From Planctomycetota bacterium (GTDB lineage Bacteria > Planctomycetota > Phycisphaerae > UBA1845 > UTPLA1): DNA of 64,000 nt. The stretch spans positions 124,001 through 188,000 of the forward strand of contig JAATGM010000042.1 of assembly GCA_015654675.1 (NCBI GenBank), read 5' to 3'. Positions 25,637 through 63,248 of the stretch are shown here, one piece after another. How positions within the stretch are numbered: position 1 is the stretch's first letter; every line of letters starts with the position of its first letter. A program made the translations under genes and the position numbers. The notes beneath the pieces were generated by a model. The model was not told where the DNA came from and searched no databases. It saw only the letters and a program-made list of their open reading frames with translations.

Positions 25637-26869
25637 ATGACGCCGATTGTTCGAGGGATTCGGAGTGGTTGTCGATTTCGCTGGCCTCGCGCGCTGATGT
25701 GCGGGGTCGTGCTCTGGGCCGTGCTGGGCGTGAGTGCCTTGTCGCAGGCGGGGCTGGTGATTGTTCGCGTTCCGGCCGGTGGGACGGGTGGGACTCCGCC
25801 GCCGAATGTGGCTGGGGACGGGGAGATCATTGCGATCTTTGACCGGGCGGCGGCTTACTGGGAGCAGACGTTTCCCGATCCGCTGCAGAACTGGACGGTG
25901 GAGATGCAGTTTGGGTGGGGGGCGGTCGGGTCGGGCTACAACGGGCTGAGCGCGCAGTTCACGCTGGGCAGCGCGGGCGGGACGCCGAGACGCATTCTGT
26001 CGGGTGCGATCGTGTTCGATAACTCGGGGGCGACGCACTGGTTTGCCGACCGGAATCCCGACAGCAACGCGGCGTATGCGGATGTTCAGCCGATGGGCGG
26101 GGAGTTCGTGGTGCCGTCGGCGCCGGGCGGCATCGCGCACGCCAACACGGGGATCTGGTTTGTGAACCCGACGAACGGCGATGCGGTGGACCACCTGGAC
26201 CTGCTGACCATCGCCATGCACGAGATCGGGCATGGGCTGGGGATGTTGCAAAGCCCGCCGGAGTATTCGACGCCGTTTCAATTCGAGATCGGCGAGGCGG
26301 TATCGTCGAAGTATGCCGGGTTGGAAGTGTTCCTGGACAGTCTCGGCATTTTTGAGCATTTGCCGCCGCCGTCACTGATGATGCCGCGGAACCAGTCGAG
26401 CATCCGGCAGTTTCCGGCGGTGCTGGACATCATCTCGTTGGCCCAGATCAGTGAGTACAACAATCCGACGTGGTATCCGACGCTTGAGCTGATTGTCGGC
26501 GGACTGAACCTACCGGTCGCGGACAAGAACAGTTTGCTGAAGAAGGTGCAGTTGAGCCGGACGCGGCTGCGATTCGGGAATCGGAGGGCGGCGCGGAACC
26601 TTTTGACGGCGTTTATCGCGGAGGTTCGGGCGAACGCGAGCGGTAGCTTGAGCGAGGAGGCGATCGAGTCGCTGGTTTCGATCGGGGAGACGGCGATTGC
26701 GGGGATTCTGCATGTGGAGACGCCGTGCACGGATGATGGATCGGACGCGGAGGACCCGCCGAGCGGTGTCTGCGGGGCGCTGTGTGGGGCGTTTTCGGCG
26801 GGGGTTATTCCGATGACGGTGATTGGGTTTGCGATTTTGAGGGGCGGGGTGCGGAGGCGGCGACGCTGA
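25637..26869 (+). CDS. Secreted metzincin-like metalloprotease with Cys/TM/Arg C-terminal tail
   Basis: 410 residues. Signal peptide (LMCGVVLWAVLGVSALSQAG) at about 20-39. The catalytic helix IAMHEIGHGLGML gives the zinc ligands HExxH near residue 195; the third metzincin ligand position holds Gln rather than His, which I recall is common in the matrixin-like NF038122-type group. A Met (SLMMP) lies downstream where a Met-turn could be. The C-terminus has two Cys (VCGALCG), a hydrophobic helix and a terminal run of Arg, a layout like MYXO-CTERM or other sorting tails. Probably anchored or sorted to the cell surface. Confidence 0.8.
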   Translation: MTPIVRGIRSGCRFRWPRALMCGVVLWAVLGVSALSQAGLVIVRVPAGGTGGTPPPNVAGDGEIIAIFDRAAAYWEQTFPDPLQNWTVEMQFGWGAVGSGYNGLSAQFTLGSAGGTPRRILSGAIVFDNSGATHWFADRNPDSNAAYADVQPMGGEFVVPSAPGGIAHANTGIWFVNPTNGDAVDHLDLLTIAMHEIGHGLGMLQSPPEYSTPFQFEIGEAVSSKYAGLEVFLDSLGIFEHLPPPSLMMPRNQSSIRQFPAVLDIISLAQISEYNNPTWYPTLELIVGGLNLPVADKNSLLKKVQLSRTRLRFGNRRAARNLLTAFIAEVRANASGSLSEEAIESLVSIGETAIAGILHVETPCTDDGSDAEDPPSGVCGALCGAFSAGVIPMTVIGFAILRGGVRRRRR

Positions 26870-26925
26870 GGAATGGATCGGGCGCGGGTAGAATTGGATT
26901 CTTTATCTGTGACAGGAGACTGAAG

Positions 26926-28044
26926 ATGCGACACTCTTTTCCGGGGATTGCGGGGCTGGTGATTGTCTGCGTTGCGTGCGGGGGTGCGCGGGCGGATGAG
27001 GAGCTGGATCGGATCACGGCCGACTACGACAAGGCGATGAAGGCGTGGGTTGAGAAGTTCAAAGCCCTGCGCGAGAAGGAGGGAGACGGCCCCATCGATG
27101 AGGCCAAGCTGCCGCCAATGCCGACCGCGGCGTTTCTGCCGAAGTTCAAGGCGTATGCCGAGGCGCACGCGGGCAAGCCGGAGGCGGTGGAGGCGCTGGT
27201 GCAGGTGATCCAGCTGGCCGGCCGGTCGGGCGGGCCGATGGACAAACCGAACGCCGACGCAGAGTGGGCCGTGGGGCGGCTGGCGCGGGACCACGCGAGC
27301 GATGAGTCGATGGCGGAGCACATTCCTCAATTGAATCAGGCGTCGTGGTATGTCGACCCGAAGACGCTGGGGCAGCTCTACCTGGCGGTTTCGGAGAGCA
27401 ACAAGAGCCGCGACGCGAAGGCGTCGGCGCGATTCGGGCTGGCGTTGCTGCGCGGCACAGCAAACCCGATGAAGCCGCGCGAGATCTCGCCGGAGGATCG
27501 GACGCTGGCGCTCGAGATGTTTCGCGCGATCGCGGCGGACTTTGCGGATACGAAGGCCGGCAAGGCAGCGAAGTCGTACATTTTCGAGATGGAACACCTG
27601 CAGGTGGGAATGAAGGCGCCGGAGATTGAGGGGAAGGCGGTCGATGGGACGTTGATCCGGCTGTCGCAGTTTCGCGGGCAAGTGGTGGTGCTGGACTTCT
27701 GGGGATTCTGGTGAGGGGGTTGCAGAGAAATGCTGCCTGAGGAGCGGGAGATGGTTGGCAAGATGGCCGGCCGACCGTTCACGCTCCTGGGGATTAACAG
27801 CGATCAGGACCGGTCGGTTCTGAAAAAGAAGTTTGAGAAAGAGAAGATCACGTGGCCGAACATTCTTGAGGGGAAAGAGCATGCGGTTTCGCGGGAGTGG
27901 AACGTGCATGTGTATCCGACGATTTATTTGATCGATGCGGATGGAGTGATCCGGCAGCGGGATATTAACGGGCCGGGGTTTGAGGGGGACGTGGAAAAGA
28001 TGGTGGCGGAGGCGGAGAAGCGGAAGGGTAAGGGTGGGGGGTGA
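26926..28044 (+). CDS. TlpA-like thioredoxin-fold protein with in-frame UGA at the redox motif (probable selenoprotein)
   Basis: 372 residues if the TGA at 27712-27714 is read as selenocysteine. ATG 26926 follows GGAG by seven bases; the signal peptide is IAGLVIVCVACGGARA. Residues 20-235 are a helical domain; then comes the AhpC/TSA-thioredoxin domain: APEIEGKAVDGTLIRLSQFRGQVVVLDFWGFW, the UGA (residue 263), then GGCREMLPEEREM, INSD, and the cis-Pro motif VYPTIYLID. The expected redox motif CxxC becomes UGGC. A SECIS-like hairpin starts eight bases after the UGA. It should act as a periplasmic disulfide reductase. A nonsense mutation of a Cys codon or a sequencing error are the alternatives. 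Confidence 0.8.
27715..27738 (+). promoter_or_regulatory. Candidate bacterial SECIS hairpin
   Basis: After the UGA, GCAG (27722-27725) pairs with CTGC (27733-27736) around the seven-base loop AGAAATG; a second short pairing GG/CT can form below a TT bulge. The second loop base is G, and the loop begins 11 bases after the UGA, both within the described range for bacterial SECIS elements. The stem is short, so this is supportive rather than proof. Confidence 0.5.
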
Positions 28045-28117: not shown

Positions 28118-29575
28118 CTAGCGGGTGGCGACGGGTTGCTTGGGCGGTGGTTTTGCGGCCGGCTCGGGGGCTCCGTGGATGGTGTGGCCGAAGGCACCTT
28201 CGGCCGCTTCCATGATTGTTTCGCTGGTGGCGGGGTGGGGGTGAATAGTCAGGGCGATGTCGTCTGCTACGGCGGCCATTTCGATGCCGAGGACGGCTTC
28301 GGAGATGAGGTCGCCGGCGTGGGCGCCGACGATTCCTACGCCCAGCAGCCGCTGGGTTTTTGCGTCGAAGATCATCTTCGTCAGACCGTCGGTGCGGGCC
28401 ATGGCTACGGCGCGGCCGGAGCCTACCCAGGGGAAGCGGGAAATTTTCACGTCGAGCTTTTGCTCTTTGGCCTGCTTTTCGGTGAGGCCGCACCAGGCGA
28501 CTTCGGGGTCGGTGTAGATGACGGCGGGTATCGCGGCGGGTTCGAAGACGGTGGGCTTGCCGGCGAGCGCTTCGGCGGCGACTTTGCCTTCGGCGGAGGC
28601 CTTGTGGGCGAGCATGGGTTCACCGGCGACGTCGCCGATGGCGAAGATGCGGATGTCGTCGGTACGGCGCTGATTGTCTACCTTGATGAAGCCCTTGTCG
28701 TCGAGGCGGGCCTTGGTTTTTTCGAGGCCGAGGTTTTCGGTGTTGGGACGGCGGCCGATGGAGACGAGGACGCGGTCGAAGCGCTCGGTGTGGTCCTGGC
28801 CGGCCACGGTGTAGACGACTTCGACGCCACCATCGACTTTGCGGCCGGACTTGAGGGTGGCGGAGGTGTGGATGTTCGCGAACTGCTTGGTGAGCTTGGC
28901 GGCGAGGGGCTTGATGAGTTCGGGGTCGGCGCCGGGGACGAGCGCGTCCAACGCTTCGATACAGGTGACGGCTGAGCCGAGGGAGGCGTAGACCTGGCCG
29001 AGCTCGAGGCCGATGTAGCCACCGCCGACGACGAGCAGGCGGGTGGGGATGGTTTCGAGCTTGAGGGCGTCGGCGGCGTCCCAATAGCAGTCGCGCGGGA
29101 GGACTTTTTCGGGAAGGGTCTTCGCGCGCGAGCCGGTGGCGATGATGCAATTCTTGAAGCGGATGAGGGAGACGTTGCCGCCCTCGACGCGGACAGAGCG
29201 CGGGCCGTCGAAGGAGGCGCGGCCGGTGTAGTAGGTGATCTGGCGGCCTTTGAGCAGGCCGGCGACGCCCGTGGAGAGTCGGCGGATGACGCCGGCCTTC
29301 CAGGTGCGGAGTTTTTCGATGTCGAAGGTCGGGGCGGGGAAGGCGACTCCGAAGGCGGCGGCGTGCTGGGCATTTTCGACAATGTGGCCGACGTGGAGGA
29401 GGGCCTTGGAGGGGATGCAGCCCTCGCGGAGGCAGACGCCGCCGGGGACTTCGGCGGATTCGATGATGGCAGTGTCGAGTCCGAGGTCGGCGGCGTGTGC
29501 GGCGGCGACGTATCCGCCGGGGCCAGCGCCGATGACGAGGAGATCAACTTCTTCCGTGAGTTCGCCGACGACCAT
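28118..29575 (-). CDS. lpdA: Dihydrolipoamide dehydrogenase (E3)
   Basis: 485 residues from the ATG at 29575, chosen because AAGGA lies eight bases before it; an ATG three codons upstream is less well placed. FAD-binding VIGAGPGGYVAA, the redox disulfide GGVCLREGCIPSK, NAD-binding VVGGGYIGLELG, the second FAD motif IFAIGDVAGEPML and the C-terminal HPHPATSE with the catalytic His-Glu pair. It reoxidises the lipoyl groups of 2-oxoacid dehydrogenases or the glycine cleavage system. No E1 or E2 gene is nearby. The C-terminus carries an extra Pro/Ala tail. Confidence 0.96.
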   Translation of the reverse strand: MVVGELTEEVDLLVIGAGPGGYVAAAHAADLGLDTAIIESAEVPGGVCLREGCIPSKALLHVGHIVENAQHAAAFGVAFPAPTFDIEKLRTWKAGVIRRLSTGVAGLLKGRQITYYTGRASFDGPRSVRVEGGNVSLIRFKNCIIATGSRAKTLPEKVLPRDCYWDAADALKLETIPTRLLVVGGGYIGLELGQVYASLGSAVTCIEALDALVPGADPELIKPLAAKLTKQFANIHTSATLKSGRKVDGGVEVVYTVAGQDHTERFDRVLVSIGRRPNTENLGLEKTKARLDDKGFIKVDNQRRTDDIRIFAIGDVAGEPMLAHKASAEGKVAAEALAGKPTVFEPAAIPAVIYTDPEVAWCGLTEKQAKEQKLDVKISRFPWVGSGRAVAMARTDGLTKMIFDAKTQRLLGVGIVGAHAGDLISEAVLGIEMAAVADDIALTIHPHPATSETIMEAAEGAFGHTIHGAPEPAAKPPPKQPVATR

Positions 29576-29679
29576 GGATCGCATCCTTTCCGCGATGGAC
29601 GAAGGAGTGATTGTAAGGACGGCGCGCGGCGGCTGCCAGCATCGCTTTACAGAGCGCGGTCGGCGATTAAGCTACGGCG

Positions 29680-42043: not shown

Positions 42044-42973
42044 ATGCTCTGGCAACGCATTACTTTCGGCGCGTTCATGATCGCGGCCCTGATCGGGCTG
42101 ATCTGGGCGGATGACTACTTTGCGCAGCAACTGGCGGAAGAAAGATCGCCGACGCTTCTGATTAACGTCGCGCTCTTATTGCACGAGGGGCTGTTGCTCA
42201 CGCTTGTAGTGGCGGTCTTGGCGGTTTTCGCGGTTCGCGAGATGTCTCGACTGCTTCGCGGTGCCGGGCATCAGGCCGCTGCGGTCTGGGCGGCTATCGC
42301 CTGCCTGGGGCTGATCTTCATTCCGTGGTTTGTGCGAAACAATATCTCGAAGGAGGTCTCGGCGGACATCACGACGGATTACACGTACACACTGAACTGG
42401 CTGATCGCGATGGTGGTGGGGACGTTTCTGGTGGTCGGGGCACGGCGGCGGACGGCCGGGGCCGCCGGGGCGATCGGATCGACGCTATTGATCATTCTCT
42501 ACATCGGTGTGCTGTCGGGATATCTGGTTCGGATCCGGATGTGGGGGTCGGCGTGGCTGGTGTTGTATGTGCTGTTTGTGGTGAAGATTTGCGACATCGG
42601 AGCATACTTCACAGGAATGGCCATCGGACGGAATAAGCTGATCGAGTGGCTGAGCCCGAAGAAGACGTGGGAAGGACTGCTGGGCGGGGTAGTGGCGTCT
42701 GCGTTGCTGGCGATCGGGCTGGCGAAGCTGGCGGCGGCGTATGGACCGCTGAGTCTCCGGACGACGTGGCCGGGCACGAAACAGGCGGCGATCTTCGGGG
42801 TTCTCATGGCTGTCATTGGGCAGATGGGCGACCTGGTTGAGTCGCTGTTCAAGCGGGATGCGCAGGCAAAGGACAGCGGGGCGGTCGTACCGTCATTTGG
42901 CGGGGTGATGGATATCATCGACTCGCCCTTGTTGACGGCTCCCATCGCGTTCTGGATGTTGGTAAAGTTGTGA
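42044..42973 (+). CDS. cdsA: Phosphatidate cytidylyltransferase
   Basis: 309 residues with about eight membrane helices. The C-terminal CdsA signature is complete: SPKKTWEGLLGG, GQMGDLVESLFKRDAQAKDSG and SFGGVMDIIDSPLL. It makes CDP-diacylglycerol from CTP and phosphatidic acid, the branch point of phospholipid synthesis. No Shine-Dalgarno sequence precedes the ATG; a palindrome abuts it, so the N-terminal residues are less certain. Followed 21 bp later by a PhoH-like gene. Confidence 0.93.
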   Translation: MLWQRITFGAFMIAALIGLIWADDYFAQQLAEERSPTLLINVALLLHEGLLLTLVVAVLAVFAVREMSRLLRGAGHQAAAVWAAIACLGLIFIPWFVRNNISKEVSADITTDYTYTLNWLIAMVVGTFLVVGARRRTAGAAGAIGSTLLIILYIGVLSGYLVRIRMWGSAWLVLYVLFVVKICDIGAYFTGMAIGRNKLIEWLSPKKTWEGLLGGVVASALLAIGLAKLAAAYGPLSLRTTWPGTKQAAIFGVLMAVIGQMGDLVESLFKRDAQAKDSGAVVPSFGGVMDIIDSPLLTAPIAFWMLVKL

Positions 42974-61922: not shown

Positions 61923-63248
61923 CTACTCGCCCGTGCGGCGCAACCGCAGGTTCAGCTCCGTCAATCGGCGCTTGATCTCGTTCAACGAGGTCTGGCCGAA
62001 GTTGCGGGTGGCGAGCAGCTCCTGCTCGGTCCGTGAGCACAGCTCGCCAATGCTGGCAATATTCAGCCGCTGGAGGCATTTTCGTGAACGGACGGACAGC
62101 TCGAGCTCGGCGACGGGGCGGCTCAGCACTTCCGGATTGCCGGCCACGCCAAGCTGTCGCGGGTCGGGCCGAACCGCCACGCGCGGGGCCTCGGCGAGCT
62201 GGCCGAGGCGAAGGCCTTTGCTGGTCAGCATGGCCTTGATTTCATTCAGGGAGGTTTCGCCGAAGTTCTTGTAGGCCAGCAGTTCGGTCTCGCTGATTTT
62301 GAGCAGGTCGCCGAGACTGCGGATGTTCATCTTCTTGAGGCAGTTTCGAGCGCGGACCGAAAGTTCGAATTCGGTAATGGCGATGTCGAGCACGGCATTG
62401 CGGCGCTCGGACTCGCGCTCCTGGTCCTCGTCGATGATCATGGTGGTGGATGATTCGACGTCGCGCAGGAAGAGGCGGGCCCGGGCGTGATTGGGATCGA
62501 CGGCCAGCACGCGCTGGATGCAATTCAGGGCCTGATGGAACTCGCCAAGATCTTCGTAGACGACGGCGAGGTTGAGCAGGGCGTTGGCGAAAACCACCGG
62601 GAGCTCCGCGGCCTTGCGATACAGCTCGAGGGCGCGTTGATCATCGCCGTGAAGGTCGCTGACGAAGGCGAGCCGAAACACGTAGCGACCGTTCTGCGGG
62701 TCGAGCTCGACGGCTTTTTCGTAGGCGGTAATGGCCGCCTCGATGCTGCCGGCGGCCTCGGCGCGGCGACCGTTGACGAAATGCCAGACGGCCGAGCCGG
62801 AGCCGGCGCGGGCGTGCTTGTCGACCAGCGAAGCGGCGCCGGCGGCATCGCCCTTGACGAGCAGGGTTTCGGCCTGCTCGCACGAGCATTCGAGATCGTC
62901 CCACCCGCCCGATCGGGCACGATCGAACGCGGCGATGGCGTCGTCATAGCGGCCCAGCTCGCGGAGACTGCGGGCGAGATAGAAGTCTCGCTGGCCGGAC
63001 GGCTTGGCTTTGGCGAAGGCGTCGGCCGCGGCGCGGTGATGGCCGAGGAGCTGCTGGCAGATGCCGAGCTTGAGTGCGGCGGATTTGTCGTCGCCGGAAG
63101 CGGCATCGCGTTCGAGCTGATTGATCTGCGATTTGAACTGTTCACAGGAATCGGAGCCGATGAAAGCGCCGCGCTGAATGGCGTCGCAGGCCTGTCGATC
63201 CCAGGTTTCCTGATTGAGAAGCGAAGAAAGATCAGTTGTGGTCTGCAT
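61923..63248 (-). CDS. TPR protein with two RNA-polymerase alpha-CTD-like domains
   Basis: 441 residues. The first 280 residues are TPR repeats (such as AFAKAKPSGQRDFYLARSLRELGRYDDAIAAFDRA). Two alpha-CTD-like domains follow: ELSVRARNCLKKMNIRSLGD...NFGETSLNEIKAML and ELSVRSRKCLQRLNIASIGE...NFGQTSLNEIKRRL. In E. coli alpha-CTD the matching segments bind UP-element DNA and activators; the DNA-contact Arg is kept in both copies, Asn and Lys contacts are partly changed. No RNA polymerase alpha N-domain is present. It could tether TPR partners to promoters or regulators. Confidence 0.9.
   Translation of the reverse strand: MQTTTDLSSLLNQETWDRQACDAIQRGAFIGSDSCEQFKSQINQLERDAASGDDKSAALKLGICQQLLGHHRAAADAFAKAKPSGQRDFYLARSLRELGRYDDAIAAFDRARSGGWDDLECSCEQAETLLVKGDAAGAASLVDKHARAGSGSAVWHFVNGRRAEAAGSIEAAITAYEKAVELDPQNGRYVFRLAFVSDLHGDDQRALELYRKAAELPVVFANALLNLAVVYEDLGEFHQALNCIQRVLAVDPNHARARLFLRDVESSTTMIIDEDQERESERRNAVLDIAITEFELSVRARNCLKKMNIRSLGDLLKISETELLAYKNFGETSLNEIKAMLTSKGLRLGQLAEAPRVAVRPDPRQLGVAGNPEVLSRPVAELELSVRSRKCLQRLNIASIGELCSRTEQELLATRNFGQTSLNEIKRRLTELNLRLRRTGE

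Follow-up and report, generated by a model that had tools for sequence, protein, structure and literature searches.

A probable UGA-encoded selenoprotein of the TlpA/ResA type in a Planctomycetota genome

The locus described here raises a single question: does a TGA codon within an otherwise open frame end a gene, or does it encode selenocysteine (Sec)? The window, a stretch of 64,000 nucleotides from a Planctomycetota bacterium, contains a forward-strand frame at 26926–28044 whose sole break is the TGA at 27712–27714. With this codon read as a residue, 372 residues extend from the ATG at 26926 to a terminal TGA at 28042–28044. As delimited by the open frame and its Pfam matches, with UGA taken as Sec, the gene probably encodes an exported, two-domain TlpA/ResA-like thiol-disulfide oxidoreductase whose UGA is decoded by SelB and tRNA-Sec; judging from sequence comparison, we give this reading a probability of about 0.93. 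A sequence-only reading of the same DNA had proposed a probable selenoprotein, and the codon pattern among relatives together with the machinery genes supports that proposal and makes it by far the best reading.

The frame is open on both sides of the TGA, which, as had been claimed, occupies the site of the first redox residue in a TlpA/ResA-type domain. The translation contains both FWGFW-U-GGCREM and, downstream, VYPTIY, whose YPT may by analogy play the role of the cis-proline. The homologue codons at 27712–27714 (TGA, TGC or TGT) point to Sec263 as position 1 of a UxxC motif (U-G-G-C); the TGC codon at 27721–27723 would encode the resolving Cys266, and Cys is found there in 30/30 homologue rows. 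Under translation table 11 the gene falls into two ORFs, 26782–27714 and 27730–28044, in agreement with the expected split. Ordinary annotation is therefore likely to miss it, because the standard code cuts it in two. The ATG at 26926 was chosen as the start since the N-terminus that follows resembles a signal peptide. UGA (28042–28044) also terminates this gene, so there is no reassignment of the code as a whole.

The predicted protein comprises a probable signal peptide, MRHSFPGIAGLVIVCVACGGARA, encoded at 26926–26994 (+) and recognised by eye from the translation, followed by an N-terminal all-helical domain (26995–27600, +) and a C-terminal thioredoxin-fold domain of the TlpA/ResA type (27601–28041, +). 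The C-terminal domain was identified by the Pfam Redoxin match at residues 226–348 and by sequence and fold matches. AhpC-TSA (8.5e-21; 74.6 bits, cut-off 26) and Redoxin (1.5e-16; 60.9 bits, cut-off 26.6) both pass their cut-offs, and Thioredoxin_8 matches at 6.4e-11. Domain score, UxxC motif and YPT are together those of a TlpA/ResA-type oxidoreductase of the Redoxin/AhpC-TSA fold. The solved proteins closest in sequence belong to the thioredoxin family and the thiol-disulfide oxidoreductases: 3kcm (3.1e-17), 4nmu (ResA), 3gl3 (DsbE) and 1jfu (TlpA). No Pfam family matches the roughly 200 residues N-terminal of the thioredoxin fold; the helical domain was defined from this search and a structure model. 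The model, built from three sequences and of medium confidence (mean pLDDT 76.3, pTM 0.70), places nine helices within residues 16–224 and a thioredoxin fold thereafter, with low confidence at the redox site (residues 260–269). Its top fold matches are 3kcm, 4grf and 4nmu, with ResA lower in the list. A further match, 4yod, extends over 270 alignment columns, though at 8.0 Å; the model suggests that 4yod and the selenoprotein may have a common two-domain layout.

We compared the protein with 200 relative genomes, 192 of which gave some match, many of the listed ones to the C-terminal domain only. Among the 30 matches listed, one per genome, the codon at the site is TGA in 10 and Cys in 20, so that every non-UGA row (20/20) has Cys. 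With a threshold of E<=1e-40, the 114 genomes of the order that were searched yield a close set of 20 places in 19 genomes; one genome, G079, carries both forms, one Sec (TGA) and one Cys. The sequence-only reading had asked for Cys at this site in homologues, and 12/20 places of the close set have TGC or TGT at the Sec263 codon, the other 8 having TGA. Two places in the set are incomplete: L019 is truncated at its start by a contig end, and in L033 the frame stops 39 residues past the site. Seven further genera contribute one TGA gene each and the window gene is the eighth; these genes belong to families f4 and f8. An in-frame UGA thus stands where homologues have Cys, the pattern that marks a bacterial selenoprotein. 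A contig scan added three named relatives, two Planctomycetota MAGs and Singulisphaera acidiphila, each of which has FWGFWCGPC.

Identity between the window protein and its seven UGA relatives is 37–50% before the UGA and 51–54% after it, and the higher value after the codon indicates that this stretch is kept as protein. Against four Cys forms the corresponding values are 34–39% and 39–47%. In a tree of 32 rows, from which L033 and L044 had been dropped beforehand, the eight close UGA rows form two groups of four, and resolution is too poor to show how these join. A minimum of 4 changes between U and Cys is needed, as against a mean of 8.7 with shuffled labels. A single origin of Sec is not established by this poorly resolved tree with its minimum of 4 changes; the well-supported branches are compatible with one. 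UGA occurs at the same site in two more distantly related TlpA-like ORFs as well, each from a different further genome: L039 (WASW-U-PPC) and L041 (WATW-U-PGC). The latter has a strong hairpin with loop GAUCCC and a spacing of 17, equalled by 7/60 shuffles.

The selenocysteine machinery, named in advance as a check, was found in full in the window's own genome: tRNA-Sec, selB, selA and selD. The tRNA-Sec, on contig C11, scores 67.4 bits (cut-off 47), and ARAGORN identifies it as tRNA-SeC with anticodon tca. Nine weaker rows for this RNA family occur in the same genome, and the three inspected are ordinary tRNAs (Gly, Leu and, within the window, Glu). Such weak rows mean little, because the family matches 14/14 control genomes, above the cut-off in 5. 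The selB gene scores 340 bits (cut-off 242), with a profile that exceeds its cut-off in 2/14 controls. Next comes selA, which overlaps it by 4 bases; SelA reaches 279.5 bits against a cut-off of 267.9 over 236 residues, as far as the end of the locus. The selD gene (375.9 bits) has AIRS domains and one internal TGA.

SelB exceeds the cut-off in 27/30 homologue genomes, among them every one of the 8 that carry a close UGA gene; it does not in G004, G101 and G111 (75, 85 and 63% complete). For tRNA-Sec, 7/9 UGA-bearing relatives are above the cut-off, the match of 49 bits over 86 bases in G068 being doubtful, and it is absent in G088 and G111 (62 and 63% complete). Within the window's own family SelB occurs in 16/17 genomes; the 16 other members have no match to the selenoprotein at E<=1e-40, though 15 of them have SelB. 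The presence of SelB does not separate the Sec from the Cys form, because Cys-form genomes also have it.

Other in-frame UGAs occur at Cys/Sec sites in this genome, since selD and a Prx-like ORF carry them. The selD gene (L047, G000:C1; UGA at 1531–1533) is itself UGA-coded in the context NCAG-U-AGK, with a hairpin that fits the strict SECIS rule. Among 27 AhpC-TSA places in the genome, TGA is found in two, the window gene and the Prx-like ORF (L053, G000:C50:34174-34551, - strand). The latter, an AhpC-TSA protein with FYRGHW-U-MSC that appears by eye to be membrane-anchored, is a further candidate UxxC selenoprotein.

The earlier reading had also pointed to a hairpin as an argument for Sec insertion, and here the evidence is divided. 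The candidate SECIS hairpin lies at 27717–27738 (+) with loop GAGAAA at 27725–27730; it is weak and atypically near the UGA, favoured by comparison within one group of relatives and opposed by the strict model and by shuffling. It had been described as starting 8–11 bases past the UGA with G second in its loop. We found G to be first, and the best form to start at the third base; only the inner stem (27722) starts at the eighth. Folded as ((((.(((......))).)))), it has an energy of -7.6 kcal/mol, which 20/40 synonymous shuffles equal. The bacterial SECIS model, as given in passages of PMC13188914, calls for a loop of 3–9 nt with G in its first two bases, located 16–37 nt from the UGA, and a minimum free energy of <= -7.5. 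The window gene falls outside this strict model, its best hairpin reaching -7.4, with 47/60 shuffles as low; the off-rule hairpin (spacing 10, -7.6) is matched by 46/60. In the same genome selD (-18.1; 3/60 shuffles) and the Prx-like gene (-16.4; 1/60) fit the strict model, and under laxer spacing selD is not outstanding (11/40 shuffles). Four of the 8 close UGA genes (L018, L019, L022 and L023) pass -7.5, yet shuffles equal them in 24 to 50 of 60, and 3/8 Cys genes pass as well. For the window gene, where the hairpin is no better than shuffles, the SECIS thus does not support the selenoprotein reading.

Whether relatives keep the hairpin depends on the motif: it is common to the four UGGC-type genes (L017, L022, L023 and L025) and not found in the four UGPC-type genes (L018–L021). 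In the UGGC type 26/28 hairpin pairs form, while the same shape placed at 550 offsets elsewhere gives <=21, a result from four sequences in which the pairing is partly due to Gly-Gly codons facing Leu/Ile-Pro codons. RNAalifold on these four genes returned the same hairpin unprompted and one pair longer, with 2/8 pairs changed on both sides. The UGPC type retains 12/28 pairs and folds differently under RNAalifold, with no pair changed on both sides. A high pair count may arise by chance, because this shape also attains 24/28 at two unrelated offsets among the UGPC genes. Synonymous conservation just after the UGA (codons +1..+9) is not raised: identical comparisons number 16/32 in the UGGC and 26/42 in the UGPC group, against 494/845 and 648/1071 over the whole alignments. 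In the UGGC group it is the ten codons preceding the UGA that are the more conserved (34/42 identical). A second hairpin at +16..+33 fits the UGPC type in 22/24 pairs, but it was not counted as a SECIS because Cys forms also fit (32/48) and no pair is changed on both sides.

We regard it as rather doubtful that the family inserts Sec by a non-standard signal, namely the UGGC hairpin with its loop about 10 nt past the UGA and something different in the UGPC type, with a SelB that tolerates SECIS elements outside the model beside the rule-abiding ones of selD and the Prx-like gene. The weak SECIS, which contrasts with those of selD and of the Prx-like gene, would also fit a reading in which a near-cognate or suppressor tRNA decodes the UGA independently of SelB and places another residue there, such as Trp or Cys. 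This is very improbable, given that Cys is the sole alternative at the site among relatives (20/20 non-UGA rows), that SelB is present in each of the 8 genomes with a close UGA gene and that UGA terminates the same gene. We find it scarcely credible that the gene is decaying or wrongly sequenced, with the UGA a genuine nonsense mutation or an assembly artefact and the two ORFs dead or separate. Table 11 does give two ORFs, the ATG at 27730 could restart translation and a strong SECIS was not found after the UGA, but the same TGA recurs at this codon in seven further genera with both sides conserved, and the remaining 12 close matches have a Cys codon there, so that sequencing error is not a reasonable explanation.

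If the UGA is decoded as Sec, an RNA element just past it, possibly the short-spaced hairpin, would direct the insertion. The protein would be exported by means of its signal-peptide-like N-terminus. By analogy with thioredoxin chemistry, Sec263 would act as the attacking nucleophile on disulfides or other oxidised substrates and Cys266 would resolve the selenenylsulfide, after which some reductase would reset the enzyme.

The occurrence of UxxC in thioredoxin-fold selenoproteins, cited as known, is indeed already catalogued: passages of PMC13188914 list Prx-like thiol:disulfide oxidoreductases, Redoxin-family and thiol-disulfide isomerase-like proteins (PF00578, PF08534, cd02966). Related groups appear in passages of the Sargasso Sea paper PMC1088965 (UxxC Prx-like and thiol-disulfide isomerase-like selenoproteins), of PMC1794560 (Prx-like thiol:disulfide oxidoreductases) and of the GOS paper PMC2398784 (Trx-like and Prx-like groups). 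The window protein shares with the catalogued proteins the thioredoxin fold and the Sec-first UxxC, and is set apart from them, as they are described there, by its N-terminal helical domain of about 200 residues and by FWGFW-U-GGC/GPC. The term "planctomycet" is absent from the main text of PMC13188914. Sec use is described in passages of PMC4807772 for the Porphyra planctomycetes P1 and P2, whose set of Sec-insertion genes is complete, as it is in the genome studied here; the selenoproteins named there are FdhA and FmdB, and the candidate table S9 may hold a TlpA-like entry. No planctomycete TlpA-like selenoprotein was found in the titles and abstract openings of the papers that our literature searches listed.

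The Cys forms TlpA, ResA and StoA (for example 3kcm, 4nmu, 1st9, 1jfu) rank among the top matches to the C-terminal domain in both sequence and fold. These are Cys proteins by name and family and match that domain only, and the window protein lies far below the NCBIfam subfamily cut-offs (ResA 65.6/170, StoA 45.6/210 and TlpA 39/230 bits). NF041054 (ResA-like WAxxUGC motif-containing protein, long form) is also a U-motif family, matched weakly at residues 229–343; the 41.5 bits compare with a cut-off of 300, and the window motif WGFWUGGC is UxxC, not UGC. This is a credible further case of an already known kind of selenoprotein, perhaps from a two-domain subfamily not described before. Bacteria on whose selenoproteins we found little literature thereby gain a two-domain Sec oxidoreductase that is probably exported. 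Sec and Cys variants coexist within one gene family, and the case provides a natural test of the looseness of bacterial SECIS rules.

The convergent neighbour of the gene, at 28118–29584 (-), is a pyridine nucleotide-disulphide oxidoreductase that looks by eye like a dihydrolipoamide dehydrogenase. That it is functionally tied to the selenoprotein is only a thought; at the one locus inspected, L022, no such neighbour was seen. The window holds 245 TGA codons with 40 open codons on each side, among which TGA 27712–27714 ranks second by codon score. Three others were set aside as read-through candidates. TGA 28973 is antisense to the 28118–29584 gene. TGA 42971–42973 is most likely an ordinary stop between a CdsA-like ORF (42044–42973) and an in-frame PhoH-like ORF, both named by eye; the codon scan alone mimics read-through there. 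TGA 62451, first by codon score, is antisense to a 441-aa ORF at 61923–63248 (-), which by eye contains TPR-type repeats followed by two stretches resembling the RNA polymerase alpha C-terminal domain.
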